Assembly: GCF_004151485.1 (NCBI RefSeq)
Contig: NZ_SBFF01000004.1
Coordinates: 62,001-126,000, forward strand
Length of the DNA: 64,000 bases
Reading direction: 5' to 3'
Source: Sphingosinicella sp. CPCC 101087
GTDB taxonomy: Bacteria; Pseudomonadota; Alphaproteobacteria; Sphingomonadales; Sphingomonadaceae
Numbering within the stretch: position 1 is the first letter of the stretch; each line of letters starts with the position of its first letter. The position numbers were made by a program, and so were the translations under genes. Of this stretch, positions 307 through 5,318 are shown one piece after another. The notes beneath the pieces are model-generated. The model saw nothing but the letters and a program-made list of their open reading frames with translations, did not search any database and was not told the DNA's origin.

Positions 307-702
307 ATGACAAAGTCGAGAATGACGCCCTGGCTTGCTCTGCTCGTCCTCGCCTCTCCGGCAGGCGCGCAACCGGTCGACGTCGACGGTCTCGTCGCGG
401 CCCAGCGGGAGACGCTCCGATCGGCTATGCGGCTCGATTGTCCCCCGGCCGGAGCGGACGAAGAGATTGTCGTGTGCGGTTCGCGTGACCCGGGCCGCGA
501 ACACCGGCTCCCGCTCCCCGTCGCACGCGAGCCACGCGCCGGCGACCGCGCCGCCGGAGAGCAGCGCGCCGCGCTCGACATCGACTCCAGCCGCTGCACG
601 CCCGTGGGGCGGGCTCAGCAATGCAGTGGCGGGCTCGACGTCATCGGCATCGCCTTCACGATGGCCCGCGCCCTGGGACAGGCTCTCGCCGACGAGGATT
701 AG
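307..702 (+). CDS. Small exported protein of unknown function, cysteine-containing
   Basis: A 131-residue protein with a clear Sec signal peptide (hydrophobic core residues 8-19, probable cleavage after the AGA at 19-21). The mature part has four cysteines, among them one in a [10 protein letters not shown] segment, and the C-terminal pair lies in [12 protein letters not shown] associate the short 'IVVCG-R' exported proteins with sphingomonads, but no function is known to me. Diverges from glpX, and its stop overlaps the stop of the convergent hxlR-type gene by four bases. Probably periplasmic; disulfides are an inference. Confidence 0.72.
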
Positions 703-1403
703 CTCGCCGGCACCGGCGCCTTGGGGGGAAGCTCGAACAGATTCGCGAAGGCGGCCGCCACTTCGCGATCGCCGTCGACGGCCAGCGCTCCGTCCGCTTC
801 GAGCGCTTCGAGAGGCACATCCCCGTAGACGAAGGCGGCGATCGCCGAAGCGGGACCGGTAAGGACCAGGTCCGAACCCTCCGGATCGCCGCGTGCGGTG
901 TGGACCATTCCGCCGGCCACATCGGCAACGAACGTCTCGGCGCCGATGCGAAAGCCGACCCGCGCCGTCATCCCCTCGGCTTTGCCGGAATCGAACATGG
1001 TGCGGAAAGACAGCATCAGCGACGTCCCACTAAGCGGCAGTGTCGGATCGTGGGCGGGTGAGCGTGCCGCCCATTTTCCAAGCGCCTTGATGATCGGTTC
1101 GGCCTCATAGCCCCACTCGGTAAGTTCGTAGACTTGGGCGGAGGCAGGCGGAGGAAGCCGGCGACGGACGACGAGCCCGGAGGCCTCCAGCCCCTCGAGC
1201 CGCTGAGTGAGCACGTTTGCGCTCAAACCAGGCAGGTCGCTTCGAATGTCACCGAACCTCTTCGGACCAAGCATAAGCTCCCGCATCACCAGCAGGGCCC
1301 AGCGCTCGCCGACCAAATCGAGCGCATGGGCGGTCCCGCATGCGTCATCATACCGCCGGCGGGATGCAGGTCGAGGCGACTCAGTTATTTTTTGTAACTC
1401 CAT
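699..1403 (-). CDS. HxlR-family transcriptional regulator with C-terminal SCP2-like domain
   Basis: 234 residues. Residues about 18-115 are the HxlR winged helix ([20 protein letters not shown], then [20 protein letters not shown], recognition region [18 protein letters not shown]). Residues about 130-225 resemble the SCP2/sterol-carrier-like ligand domain often attached to this subfamily (...[20 protein letters not shown]...). HxlR proteins usually repress a neighbouring gene and respond to electrophiles, oxidants or aromatic compounds. Divergent from the cassette starting at 1465, so that cassette is the likely target together with itself. A near-perfect promoter ends only a few bases before the ATG at 1403, so the message is probably leaderless. 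Specific inducer unknown. Confidence 0.9.
1384..1398. promoter_or_regulatory. Candidate HxlR operator, dyad 1
   Basis: GTTATTTTTTGTAAC: four-base arms GTTA/TAAC (five with the flanking A and T) around a 7-base centre. It covers the -35 of the forward promoter and codons 2-7 of the regulator gene. Second copy 21 bp away, i.e. on the same face of the helix. Confidence 0.55.
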
Positions 1404-1419
1404 AGTTGCATTTTATAAC
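1392..1419 (+). promoter_or_regulatory. Promoter of the VOC/GST/DoxX/DUF1428 cassette
   Basis: TTGTAA (1392-1397), 16-base spacer, TATAAC (1414-1419) reading towards the gene at 1465. Its elements are embedded in the two dyads described separately, the layout expected of a repressible promoter. Confidence 0.6.
1405..1419. promoter_or_regulatory. Candidate HxlR operator, dyad 2
   Basis: GTTGCATTTTATAAC, same GTT(A/G)-N7-TAAC pattern as dyad 1, starting 21 bp after it. It overlaps the -10 elements of both divergent promoters. Confidence 0.55.
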
Positions 1420-1435
1420 CGAACAGCGCATCAAC
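1412..1435 (-). promoter_or_regulatory. Promoter of the HxlR-type gene (-35 and -10)
   Basis: On the minus strand, TTGACG (1440-1435) is followed by a 17-base spacer and TATAAA (1417-1412), a near-consensus sigma70 promoter. The expected transcription start is at about 1405-1403, which is the ATG itself, so the transcript is likely leaderless. It overlaps the forward promoter of the 1465 cassette. Confidence 0.75.
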
Positions 1436-1464
1436 GTCAAACCCCGATTCGCAAGGAGGACGAG

Positions 1465-1902
1465 ATGTCCAAGATGATTTTCGTGAACCTGCCCGTTGCC
1501 GACCTCCCCGCCGCCAAGGCCTTCTACGAGGCAATCGGCGCGACGAACGAGCCGCGCTTCACCGACGAGACGGCGGCCTGCATGGTCTTTTCCGACACCA
1601 TTTTCGTGATGCTTCTGACCCACGAGAAGTTCGCCCAGTTCACGCCCAAGACGATCGTCGACGCCCACCACAGCAGCGAAGTCCTGATCGCCATCTCCGC
1701 CGACAGCCGCGAAGGCGTGGACGAGATCACCGACAAGGCGCTCTCCGCCGGCGGCCGAGAGCCGCGCGACCGGCAAGATTATGGCTTCATGTACAGCCGC
1801 AGCTTCGAGGATCTCGACGGTCACATCTGGGAGCCGATGTGGATGGACGTCGAGGCGGCGATGGCCGAGGCGCCCCAGCCATCCGAGCCGGTCCAGGCCT
1901 GA
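1465..1902 (+). CDS. VOC-superfamily protein (glyoxalase-like), first gene of the cassette
   Basis: 145 residues forming one vicinal-oxygen-chelate unit: an opening strand/helix (IFVNLPVADLPAAKAFYEAI), a central region and a terminal DGHIWEPMWMD that carries the usual C-terminal acidic residue. The first metal position that is normally His is Asn here, so metal catalysis is uncertain. The VOC fold serves glyoxalase, dioxygenase and drug-binding proteins, and the substrate cannot be read. The ATG at 1465 is preceded by AAGGAGG (1453-1459), an ideal ribosome-binding site, which rejects the longer upstream reading. Leads six co-directional genes with 23-66 base gaps. Confidence 0.88.
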   Translation: MSKMIFVNLPVADLPAAKAFYEAIGATNEPRFTDETAACMVFSDTIFVMLLTHEKFAQFTPKTIVDAHHSSEVLIAISADSREGVDEITDKALSAGGREPRDRQDYGFMYSRSFEDLDGHIWEPMWMDVEAAMAEAPQPSEPVQA

Positions 1903-1925: not shown

Positions 1926-2603
1926 ATGCCCGTCGATCCGAATGCGCCGGTGCGCATCAGCGCCTACAACTGGGTCCCGCCCTTCGCCCGCGGCCTCGTC
2001 CGCGACCTGCGCGTCCGCTGGGCGCTCGAGGAAGCCGGAATCCCCTATGCGGTCCGCAAGCTCGACGCGAGGGCCGAGCGACCGTCCGACTATTTCGCCG
2101 AGCAGCCGTTCGGCCAGGTGCCGAGCTATCGCGACGAGTCGATCAGCTTGTTCGAGTCGGGCGCCATCGTCATCCATATCGGCGAGACGTGCGACACCCT
2201 GCTGCCGTCCGATGCAAAGGGACGCGGCCGTGCCATTTCCTGGGCCATCGCCGCGCTCAACAGCATCGAACCGTCGGTGATGAACCTGGCGACCATCGAC
2301 TTCTTCAATCCTGACGCAGCCTGGGCGCGTGAGAGCCGTCCCCGAGTGGCCGCAATGGTCGAAAGCCGCCTCGATCGGCTGGTCGACCATCTCGAAGACC
2401 GGGAGTGGCTGGAAGGCCGGTTCACGGCCGGCGACCTGTTGATGGTCACGGTCCTGCGTGCCCTCAAGCATACCGATCTGGTCGAGGCACGGCCGACGCT
2501 CGCCGCATACAAGAAGCGGGGCGAGGAGCGACCGGCCTTCGAGCGCGCGCTCGCCGCCCAACTCGCGGATTTCGAGGAAGGCGAAGCCGCGGCAGCGGCG
2601 TGA
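1926..2603 (+). CDS. Glutathione S-transferase family protein
   Basis: 225 residues. The N-terminal thioredoxin-like domain (about 10-90) contains the GSH-binding cis-proline region (GQVPSYRDESISLFESGAIV, the usual 'ESxAI' motif), and residues about 95-215 are the all-helical C-terminal domain. The family conjugates glutathione to electrophiles or acts as peroxidase or isomerase in the cytoplasm. The catalytic Ser/Cys/Tyr near the N-terminus is not obvious (YNWVPPFARG region). Separated from the VOC gene by 23 bases, and shares its transcription unit and probable HxlR control. Specific substrate not deducible. Confidence 0.9.
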   Translation: MPVDPNAPVRISAYNWVPPFARGLVRDLRVRWALEEAGIPYAVRKLDARAERPSDYFAEQPFGQVPSYRDESISLFESGAIVIHIGETCDTLLPSDAKGRGRAISWAIAALNSIEPSVMNLATIDFFNPDAAWARESRPRVAAMVESRLDRLVDHLEDREWLEGRFTAGDLLMVTVLRALKHTDLVEARPTLAAYKKRGEERPAFERALAAQLADFEEGEAAAAA

Positions 2604-2634: not shown

Positions 2635-3069
2635 ATGAACACGGCCGCACTGGACTATCGGACAGGGACGGACGGGGCACGACCCTCGGTCGGCGGGGTT
2701 CGCGCAGGTTGGGCCTTGAGCGGGATCGTCATCCTGTTCCTCGCTCTCGACGGCGCGATGAAGCTGACGCAGCTTCCGATCGTCGCCGAGACGAGCGCGC
2801 AGCTTGGCTGGCCCAGCGACTCGCCTACCCTCTATCTGCTCGCTGGGCTGCTGCTCGGATCGACCCTGCTCTACGCGATTCCGCGAACGGCGATCCTCGG
2901 GGCCATCCTGCTGACCGCCTATCTCGGCGGTGCGGTCTCCACGCACGTCAGGATCGGCAATCCTCTCTTCAGCCACATTTTGTTCGGGGTGTATCTTGGC
3001 ATCTTCGTCTGGGGCGGCCTGTGGCTCCGCGACGCCAAGGTGCGGGCCCTGTTGCCGCTGCGTGGATGA
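2635..3069 (+). CDS. DoxX-like integral membrane protein
   Basis: 144 residues with four predicted membrane segments (about 27-45, 65-85, 90-108, 118-135), the size and layout of the DoxX/DoxX-like family; the central GLLLGSTLLYAIPRTAILGA loop is typical. DoxX proteins are linked to quinone/thiosulfate oxidation and redox stress, but most members have no assigned reaction. Start preceded by AAGGAG at 2621-2626. Third gene of the hxlR-controlled cassette, likely the only membrane component. Confidence 0.85.
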   Translation: MNTAALDYRTGTDGARPSVGGVRAGWALSGIVILFLALDGAMKLTQLPIVAETSAQLGWPSDSPTLYLLAGLLLGSTLLYAIPRTAILGAILLTAYLGGAVSTHVRIGNPLFSHILFGVYLGIFVWGGLWLRDAKVRALLPLRG

Positions 3070-3122: not shown

Positions 3123-3884
3123 ATGACCTATGTTGAAGGATTCGTCGCGGCAGTTCCGGCGAAGAACAAGGAAGCCTATCGCAAGCACGCCGCCGACGCG
3201 GCTACGCTGTTCAGGGAGTTCGGCGTGGTCCGGATGGTCGAGACCTGGGGCGACGACGTCCCCGACGGCAAGGTCACCGACTTCAAGGGCGCCGTCCAGG
3301 CGAAGGAAGACGAGGTCGTCGTCTTCTCCTGGTTCGAATATCCCTCGAAAGAAGCCCGCGACGCCGCCAATCAGAGGATCGCGAGCGACCCGCGCATGAA
3401 GGCAATGGGCGAGTCCATGCCGTTCGACGGGCAGCGCATGATCTATGGCGGCTTCGCCCCGATCGTGGAGGAGTCGACCGGCGGCCGAATGGGCTATGCC
3501 GACGGATATCTGCTCGCGGTGTCCGACTCCAACAAGGAGGCCTATCGGGAGATGGCACAGAAGGCCTCGGTCATATTCCTCGATCATGGCGCGACCCGGG
3601 TGATCGAGGCCTGGGGCAACGATGTCCCCGACGGCAAGGTCACCGACTTCAGGCGGGCCGTGAAGGCGGTGGACGGCGAGAGCATCGTCTTCTCCTGGGT
3701 CGAGTGGCCGTCGAAGGAGGCCCGCGCCAAGGGTTGGGAGAAGGTCATGGCGGACGAGCGGATGAAGTGCGATCCGAACAACATGCCGTTTGACGGTCAG
3801 CGCATGATCTATGGCGGCTTCGTGCCGATCGTCGACGAAGGCGCGCCCGTCCAGGCGAAAGCGGCCATGCCGCAGCCGGCCTGA
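3123..3884 (+). CDS. Tandem DUF1428 protein (two fused copies)
   Basis: 253 residues, about twice the usual DUF1428 length. Copies span residues about 1-118 and 121-240; both contain the segment DDVPDGKVTDF/NDVPDGKVTDF, an FSW-E-PSKEAR motif and the terminal MPFDGQRMIYGGF. DUF1428 has a ferredoxin-like (dimeric alpha/beta barrel) fold, so the fusion may make an intramolecular dimer; no reaction is known. Two close ATGs (3117, 3123); 3123 has AGGAG at a 7-base distance and was chosen. Followed by a strong hairpin at 3899-3924. Fourth cassette gene. Confidence 0.88.
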   Translation: MTYVEGFVAAVPAKNKEAYRKHAADAATLFREFGVVRMVETWGDDVPDGKVTDFKGAVQAKEDEVVVFSWFEYPSKEARDAANQRIASDPRMKAMGESMPFDGQRMIYGGFAPIVEESTGGRMGYADGYLLAVSDSNKEAYREMAQKASVIFLDHGATRVIEAWGNDVPDGKVTDFRRAVKAVDGESIVFSWVEWPSKEARAKGWEKVMADERMKCDPNNMPFDGQRMIYGGFVPIVDEGAPVQAKAAMPQPA

Positions 3885-3950: not shown

Positions 3951-4790
3951 ATGTCCGACCTCACCAGCGCGCCTGCGGCGACGGCGACCCTTTCCGATAC
4001 TCCCGCACCCGGCACAGGCAGATTCTTCTGGTACGAGCTGATGACCACGGATCAGGACGCGGCCGCGCGCTTCTATGGCGAGGTGGTCGGCTGGACCGCG
4101 GCCGACCAGGGTTCGGCCGATCCCAGCGGACAGCGCTATCTCGTCCTGTCCGCCGGCAAGCATGGGGTAGCCGGCCTTCTCCAGCTGAACCGGACGATGA
4201 TCGAAGGCGGTGCGCGGCCGGGATGGATCGGCTACATCTACGTTCCCGACACCGACGAAGCGGCGAAGCGGATCCGGGAAGCAGGTGGCGCGGTCCACAT
4301 GCCGCCGCAGGACATTCCAGGGATCGGCCGCTTCGCCATGGTGGCCGATCCGGGAGGCGCTCCCTTCTACGTGATGAAGCCCTTGCCTCGCGACGACGCG
4401 CCGCCACCCGCGGCGCCCAACACGCCCGGCCATGTGAGCTGGCACGAACTCTACGCCGCCGACGGCGAGGAAGCCGCCTTCAAATTCTATTCGGGCCAGT
4501 TCGGTTGGGAGACCGTGTCCGAGATGGATATGGGGCCGATGGGCAAATACCGGATCTTCGGCTTCGACGGCGTGCAGATGGGCGGCATGATGGACAAGCC
4601 CGAGCAGGTGCCGGTCCCGTCCTGGGCCTTCTATTTCGAGGTCGACGGCCTCGAGGCGGCGATTGCGCGGATCCAGGCGCAGGGCGGAAAGGTGACGATG
4701 GGCCCGCACCAGGTGCCCGGCGACAGCTGGATCGTCCAGGCCGTGGACCCGCAGGGGGCCAGCTTCGCGCTCGTCTCCGAACGGCGCTGA
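3951..4790 (+). CDS. Two-domain VOC-superfamily protein
   Basis: 279 residues with two VOC domains: about 22-135 (GRFFWYELMTTDQDAAARFY start) and 148-270 (GHVSWHELYAADGEEAAFKF start). This is the architecture of CFP-30/27 kDa antigen-like proteins, in which the second half repeats the first. The function of that group is unknown; a small-molecule binder or lyase is likely. The ATG at 3951 follows a GAAAGG (3937-3942). Fifth cassette gene, just after the hairpin. Confidence 0.87.
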   Translation: MSDLTSAPAATATLSDTPAPGTGRFFWYELMTTDQDAAARFYGEVVGWTAADQGSADPSGQRYLVLSAGKHGVAGLLQLNRTMIEGGARPGWIGYIYVPDTDEAAKRIREAGGAVHMPPQDIPGIGRFAMVADPGGAPFYVMKPLPRDDAPPPAAPNTPGHVSWHELYAADGEEAAFKFYSGQFGWETVSEMDMGPMGKYRIFGFDGVQMGGMMDKPEQVPVPSWAFYFEVDGLEAAIARIQAQGGKVTMGPHQVPGDSWIVQAVDPQGASFALVSERR

Positions 4791-4814: not shown

Positions 4815-5318
4815 GTGCAGAAGATCACCCCTTGCCTCTGGTTCAACCACAATGCCGAGGAAGCCGCCAATTTCTACGTGACCCTGCTTCCCGACAGCCG
4901 CATCGACAAGATCGTCCACGCCCCCGCCGACACGCCGTCGGGCTCTGAAGGCTCGGTGCTCGTCGTCGAGTTCACCTTGTCAGGCCAGAATTATATCGGC
5001 CTCAACGGCGGCCCCAACTTCCCGTTCACGGAAGCCGTCTCTTTCATGATCCGCACCGAAGACCAGGCGGAGACGGACCGACTGTGGGAGGCGCACCTCG
5101 CCAATGGCGGCGAGGAGAGCGCCTGCGGCTGGCTCAAGGATCGCTGGGGCCTGTCCTGGCAGATCACGCCCAAGCGCCTGCTCGAACTGGTATCCGATCC
5201 CGACCCGGCCCGCGCCCGCCGGGCGACCCAGGCGATGATGAAGATGGTCAAGATCGACATCGCCGAAGTGGAGCGCGCCGCCGACGCAGCGGAGCCGGAG
5301 GCCGCGACCGGCTCCTGA
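4815..5318 (+). CDS. PhnB-like VOC-superfamily protein
   Basis: 167 residues. Opens with QKITPCLWFNHNAEEAANFY, the hallmark of the PhnB/'3-demethylubiquinone-9 3-methyltransferase' group of VOC proteins, and has the typical GWLKDRWGLSWQITPKRL. Despite the old name, no methyltransferase activity is expected. GTG start at 4815 with AGGAGAG (4802-4808) in front; no nearer in-frame ATG fits the family start. Last gene of the cassette, followed by a GC hairpin at 5345-5372. Confidence 0.87.
   Translation: MQKITPCLWFNHNAEEAANFYVTLLPDSRIDKIVHAPADTPSGSEGSVLVVEFTLSGQNYIGLNGGPNFPFTEAVSFMIRTEDQAETDRLWEAHLANGGEESACGWLKDRWGLSWQITPKRLLELVSDPDPARARRATQAMMKMVKIDIAEVERAADAAEPEAATGS

Follow-up and report, generated by a model that had tools for sequence, protein, structure and literature searches.

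A conserved twin-dyad element, probably an autorepressor operator, between an HxlR-SCP2 regulator gene and a divergent detoxification-type cassette in Sphingosinicella

Near the start of the window (the whole stretch of 64,000 nucleotides analysed here, from Sphingosinicella sp. CPCC 101087), a gene for an HxlR-type regulator and a cassette of detoxification type diverge from a common promoter region that carries two similar dyads. We consider it very probable that the 36-bp element formed by these dyads (1384-1419) is a dedicated autorepressor double operator, read by the adjacent HxlR-SCP2 regulator, which would repress its own gene and co-repress the cassette. The sequence, its conservation, its co-occurrence with the regulator and its constraint at the DNA level are direct results; binding, repression, cooperativity, transcription starts and the inducer are what we infer from them. 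The features involved are as follows.

699-1403, minus strand: gene for an HxlR-type regulator of 234 residues (PF01638)
1384-1398: candidate operator dyad 1, GTTATTTTTTGTAAC, overlapping the cassette -35 and regulator codons 2-7
1392-1397, plus strand: cassette -35, TTGTAA, inside dyad 1 (from sequence; weak consensus match)
1405-1419: candidate operator dyad 2, GTTGCATTTTATAAC, overlapping the -10 of both promoters
1414-1419, plus strand: cassette -10, TATAAC, inside dyad 2 (from sequence)
1417-1412, minus strand: regulator -10, TATAAA, inside dyad 2 (from sequence)
1440-1435, minus strand: regulator -35, TTGACG (from sequence)
1446-1450: GATTC, a match to the CcrM-type motif GANTC; it closely precedes the regulator -35 and falls in what is presumed to be the cassette leader
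1453-1459, plus strand: Shine-Dalgarno-like AAGGAGG of cassette gene 1 (from sequence)
1465-1902, plus strand: VOC/glyoxalase-fold protein, cassette gene 1 (PF00903)
1926-2603, plus strand: glutathione S-transferase-like protein (PF02798)
2635-3069, plus strand: DoxX-like membrane protein (PF13564)
3123-3884, plus strand: DUF1428 protein with two domain copies (PF07237, two stretches)
3951-4790, plus strand: two-domain VOC/glyoxalase-fold protein (PF00903, two stretches)
4815-5318, plus strand: 3-dmu-9_3-mt (PhnB-like, VOC-fold) protein (PF06983)

The preliminary description had proposed two divergent promoters with the dyads lying over their -35 and -10 elements, and both proposals are borne out exactly. 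On the minus strand the regulator promoter reads TTGACG, 17 nt, TATAAA, 8 nt and the ATG (1403-1401); on the plus strand the cassette promoter reads TTGTAA, 16 nt and TATAAC. The two GTTR-N7-TAAC dyads start 21 bp apart. Dyad 1, moreover, lies within the regulator reading frame, from the end of codon 2 into codon 7, a point that goes beyond the earlier description. A generic sigma-70 scan listed neither promoter, because it demands a final T in the -10 and these two end in A and C. The pattern GTTRN7TAAC occurs three times in the window against 0.13 expected, all within these two dyads (one of them matches on both strands, hence the count of three), and none of 100 shuffles of the window reached three matches. 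When the two-dyad pattern was searched with up to two mismatches in the 4.7-Mb genome, it was found here, on both strands, and at one other place, with two mismatches; the reversed control gave two forward and two reverse matches.

If the dyads are the operator of the adjacent regulator, they should accompany its orthologues, as the preliminary description had suggested for other sphingomonads, and this proved to be the case. A protein search across 296 genomes of the order (E <= 1e-40) found the regulator in 93 genomes, at 95 loci, all of which were examined, and the pair was scored over its 16 defined bases at spacing 21. It reaches at least 14/16 in 90 of the 95 loci, a score attained by one of 1900 single-base shuffles, and 21 is the best of all spacings from 16 to 40 in 88 of the 90 loci with the pair at this level. 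Four of the other five loci score 13 and one, L179, scores 10. In a separate set of loci from genome contigs the pair is present in 80 of 80, in records labelled Sphingomonadaceae, Microvirga, Methylobacterium, Ancylobacter, Ochrobactrum/Brucella, Aureimonas, Brevundimonas and others, but this set is biased because it was found partly with the peptide MELQKITE, which is itself encoded by dyad 1. A draw of 289 genomes from the class contained the regulator in five, and three new loci from that draw (L248-L250, all from one genus) score 16, 16 and 15. With 93 positive genomes among 296 of the order and five among 289 of the class, the regulator is patchily distributed.

Across 171 unique loci, admitted on at least 13 of the 16 bases, the information is concentrated in the 36-bp element and the regulator -35, and the flanks are little conserved. 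The mean GC content of the element is 0.28, as against 0.65 for its loci. A composite pattern, GTTAN7CAACN5AGTYANNNAANNNAAC with one mismatch allowed, has a single match in each of 80 of the 93 regulator genomes and none in the 203 others; the remaining 13 regulator genomes lack it. This pattern was derived from the same loci, so that only the lack of matches in those 203 counts as independent, and the genomes in this comparison are related, so that a Fisher value is not a true probability. A looser version of the pair, also with one mismatch, proved too degenerate and was set aside: it matched 175 of the 296 genomes, and its controls gave counts of similar magnitude.

The genome gives no sign of a wider regulon, since single-dyad matches to GTTRN7TAAC (11 forward and 5 reverse) are fewer than those of the reversed control (44 and 47). 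The exact dyad is likewise absent from the starts of the genome's five other HxlR-like genes. One HxlR-like protein of the same genome (L002, C1:624068-624712) is 31% identical to the regulator in a match that spans query residues 15-221, and it probably carries the C-terminal domain as well, to judge from the extent of the alignment; its start region has no exact GTTR-N7-TAAC dyad.

The same 171 loci bear on the two promoters. At the regulator -35 offset the TTG is conserved, and the best match to TTGACA falls at that offset in 110 of the 171. The distance from the regulator -10 to the start codon is fixed in the 149 unique loci that have ATG, GTG or TTG there. Considering that the -10 lies only 8 nt before the ATG, the regulator message is probably leaderless, its start site being placed by promoter spacing. 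The cassette -35 is weak here and in the relatives, where it is mostly TTCTAA or TTGTAA. A third dyad was sought in the 171 loci, and just eight extra dyads of at least 7/8 were found, at scattered offsets. Apart from the dyads, window position 1430 (offset -11 from dyad 2) is T on the regulator strand, and A on the cassette strand, in 88% of the 171 loci. This base falls between the regulator -35 and dyad 2 and may mark the point where cassette transcription starts, or else a contact made at the promoter.

The cassette itself is variable. Among 174 loci, divergent relatives of its genes within 5 kb were counted as DUF1428 in 139, the first VOC gene in 113, PhnB in 106, the second VOC gene in 99, GST in 52 and DoxX in 17; these counts are rough, as VOC-fold queries may cross-match and some contigs stop early, with DUF1428 the most frequent partner of the regulator. 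The dyads are also present at five loci without relatives of any of the six cassette genes, four of them distinct (L009 and L067 are identical).

Is dyad 1 conserved as DNA or as protein? Codon usage was counted in the 146 orthologues with an intact start, with codon 13 onward of the same genes as the comparison. Codon 3 is Leu in 124 of the 146, and it is written TTA in 122 of these 124, against 27 of 4035 later Leu codons. At codon 6, 54 of the 146 have Ile, spelled ATA in every one, against 54 of 1302 Ile codons elsewhere in the same genes. The usual start codon (ATG, GTG or TTG) is missing from 22 of the 171 loci, yet both dyads are kept, and 11 of these 22 carry a stop codon at dyad 1 in frame with the regulator. 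In some of the 22, translation may begin at a rare codon, ATT or ACG for instance. The loci that have lost the start and kept both dyads include L013, L015, L079, L099, L110 and L117; to judge by their reading frames, translation in these and others must start elsewhere, rare starts being possible for some. In the AlphaFold2 model residues 1-10 of the regulator have pLDDT below 50 and look disordered and dispensable. Given the use of TTA and ATA, the starts lost or stops gained while the dyads are kept, and the disorder in the model, the first residues of the protein are probably a by-product of the operator.

The regulator has an HxlR winged helix at residues 30-114 (PF01638, E 1.1e-20, 73.7 bits, cut-off 20.8), and its AlphaFold2 model has a mean pLDDT of 90.1. 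With Foldseek the N-terminal part superposes on chains of HypR, YodB, YtcD and HxlR among those listed, with TMt of 0.74-0.87 over 89-102 columns. The C-terminal part, residues about 137-226, is an SCP2-like domain fused to the HxlR domain: PF14864 and PF02036 fall just below their cut-offs, and Foldseek relates it to SCP2-type proteins and to alkylsulfatase C-terminal domains, with YjcS (4pdx) superposing over 102 columns at 2.7 A, and UbiJ-SCP2 reaching TMt of 0.51-0.59 but with an rmsd of about 7 A. The protein has a single cysteine, Cys22, which immediately precedes the first helix (23-31 of the model), where the HxlR (DUF24) family has its conserved Cys, and is present in 172 of 172 aligned rows (a few of them duplicates).

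The closest known system is that of YodB, an HxlR/DUF24 repressor of Bacillus subtilis that likewise has the HxlR fold. Its site is TACT-N7-AGTA, and quinone alkylates its Cys6 at the start of a helix (excerpt of PMC8063818). The dyads here share the 4-N7-4 palindrome geometry of that site (same excerpt), with GTT(A/G) rather than TACT as the half-site. Residue 26 of the regulator aligns to residue 9 of the YodB chain, so that Cys22 adjoins YodB Cys6, an equivalence by position. The differences are that two dyads 21 bp apart are found here, one of them inside the regulator codons; that the regulator has an extra C-terminal SCP2-like domain; and that YodB uses Cys6 and Cys101, whereas the regulator has Cys22 alone. 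HypR (4a5m), HxlR (7bzg) and QsrR (4hqe and 4hqm) also superpose on the N-terminal part of the regulator, but the solved HypR, QsrR and HxlR chains are about 100-110 residues long and lack the SCP2-like domain. The layout has a counterpart in ForZ/forAA of Streptomyces formicae, a divergent pair with a leaderless regulator gene, whose shared promoter carries the one operator of the genome; ForZ differs in belonging to another subfamily (MarR), in having one dyad and in its proposed autoactivation (all from the available part of PMC12421854).

The simplest scheme is that each dyad would bind one regulator dimer, with both dimers on the same side of the helix, two turns apart and probably cooperative. 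When occupied, the element would cover both promoter boxes of the cassette (-35 and -10); on the regulator side it would cover the -10 and the bases transcribed first. Since the dyads cover both promoters, the two units would be repressed together, and since the regulator message would have almost no leader, dyad 1 would be written into the first codons. How, then, might repression be relieved? The dimers would come off, and both units would be switched on, when a reactive compound acts on Cys22 or when the SCP2-like domain binds a hydrophobic ligand. Relief by reactive compounds, which the preliminary description had drawn from knowledge of the HxlR family, is plausible in view of the invariant Cys22 and the detoxification-type cassette, and an electrophile acting through Cys22 is the model we favour. 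The SCP2-like domain, which the earlier description did not mention, makes a hydrophobic ligand a serious alternative; it is possible that this domain is a hydrophobic-ligand sensor, in addition to Cys22. The operator interpretation put forward in that description thus stands as far as the dyads, their 21-bp spacing and their placement over both core promoters, all conserved with the regulator, are concerned. The joint response of the two messages that it also expected stays inferred, because the cassette -35 is a weak match.

Other readings of the element have to be weighed against this one. Chance resemblance deserves mention because short dyads readily appear in AT-rich sequence such as that of promoters, but the window shuffles fell short of the observed count in every case and conservation in 90 of 95 loci refutes it; we give this reading practically no weight. 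It is also very improbable that the conservation at the gene start reflects a feature of the protein (the N-terminal peptide MKLEKIT) or an mRNA hairpin instead of an operator. The first residues are indeed alike in many orthologues, as their consensus indicates. The TTA and ATA codons, however, are used there though rare in the same genes, relatives with stops or lost starts through the dyad keep both dyads, and the N-terminus is disordered in the model.

Two further readings accept a protein-binding site and change its reader or its sign. The candidate site is known from sequence, and the conserved T at -11 together with the GANTC site suggests that other factors read the region, so that another, unlinked transcription factor might bind the dyads and co-regulate both units, with the HxlR protein a mere target. 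This we regard as improbable: among the 296 genomes, each one that carries the composite element has a single copy and also has the regulator, and all 203 that lack the regulator lack the element too, the dyads persist at the loci without cassette-gene relatives, and the half-site spacing equals that of YodB, a member of the regulator's own HxlR/DUF24 family. Alternatively, the regulator could be an activator or a dual regulator instead of a repressor. B. subtilis HxlR is called an activator in its PDB entries, and autoactivation of a leaderless gene has been proposed for the MarR-family protein ForZ (available part of PMC12421854). Both dyads here, however, lie on core promoter elements and not upstream of a -35. 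An operator in such a position normally blocks polymerase, and activation is in our judgement unlikely, if less so than an unlinked reader. Repression by the adjacent HxlR-SCP2 protein is the reading that we retain.

The shared promoter has one further conserved feature. GANTC is the CcrM site, and it lies within -45 to -18 from dyad 2 in 90 of 94 unique Sphingomonadales loci, whereas the frequency of the word in these loci predicts 3.1. It is the commonest of the 256 words of the form XYNZW in the interval -45 to -22 (87 of 94 loci), a stretch that is otherwise hardly conserved, and two or three copies occur within -60 to +36 in 22 of the 94. In the genome-contig set, 44 of 77 unique loci contain GANTC (-60 to +36) against about 13% expected, with 17 occurrences at -13, between the -35 and -10; the intergenic density of the word would give about 15% over 92 positions. 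The middle base is C or A in 98 of 119 sites. An intergenic overrepresentation of GANTC of at least 1.5-fold has been reported (PMC7987155, in part), an excess far below the level at these loci.

In Caulobacter, GANTC is read by GcrA (excerpt of PMC3667746), and the genome studied here has a GcrA gene (PF07750, E 4.8e-41). As at the GcrA/CcrM-dependent promoters of Caulobacter, the GANTC site here stands beside a sigma-70-type promoter. The named Caulobacter targets are cell-cycle genes (same excerpt), whereas the candidate methylation site here stands ahead of the -35 box of a stress-regulator gene. Perhaps the shared promoter is a two-input switch, in which the HxlR-SCP2 repressor on the twin dyads is combined with CcrM methylation at GANTC, either read by GcrA or blocked by occupancy; we put this forward tentatively and think it somewhat doubtful. 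The site could also be bound by some other factor.

In the titles or abstract openings of the literature matches listed, which lie mostly outside the subscription literature, we found neither this operator, nor an HxlR-SCP2 regulator, nor a link between GANTC and HxlR. The available part of PMC5172544 has no occurrence of HxlR or glyoxalase, and that of PMC7835342 yielded no operator detail.

The switch is thus of a known kind, and what is new are the twin dyads, one of them in regulator codons, the SCP2-fused HxlR protein and the conserved GANTC. For the HxlR-SCP2 branch, found in roughly one in three genomes sampled from the order, the element provides a sharply defined candidate pair of factor and site, and it predicts, base by base, which changes should unlock both units. 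It is also a clean case of an operator that sets the opening residues of its own probable reader. If the two-input switch is true, the detoxification capacity of Sphingomonadales would be tied to replication state, or, alternatively, repressor occupancy would leave a heritable methylation mark. The conserved GANTC site raises the possibility that stress control is linked to CcrM methylation, beyond the cell-cycle genes.
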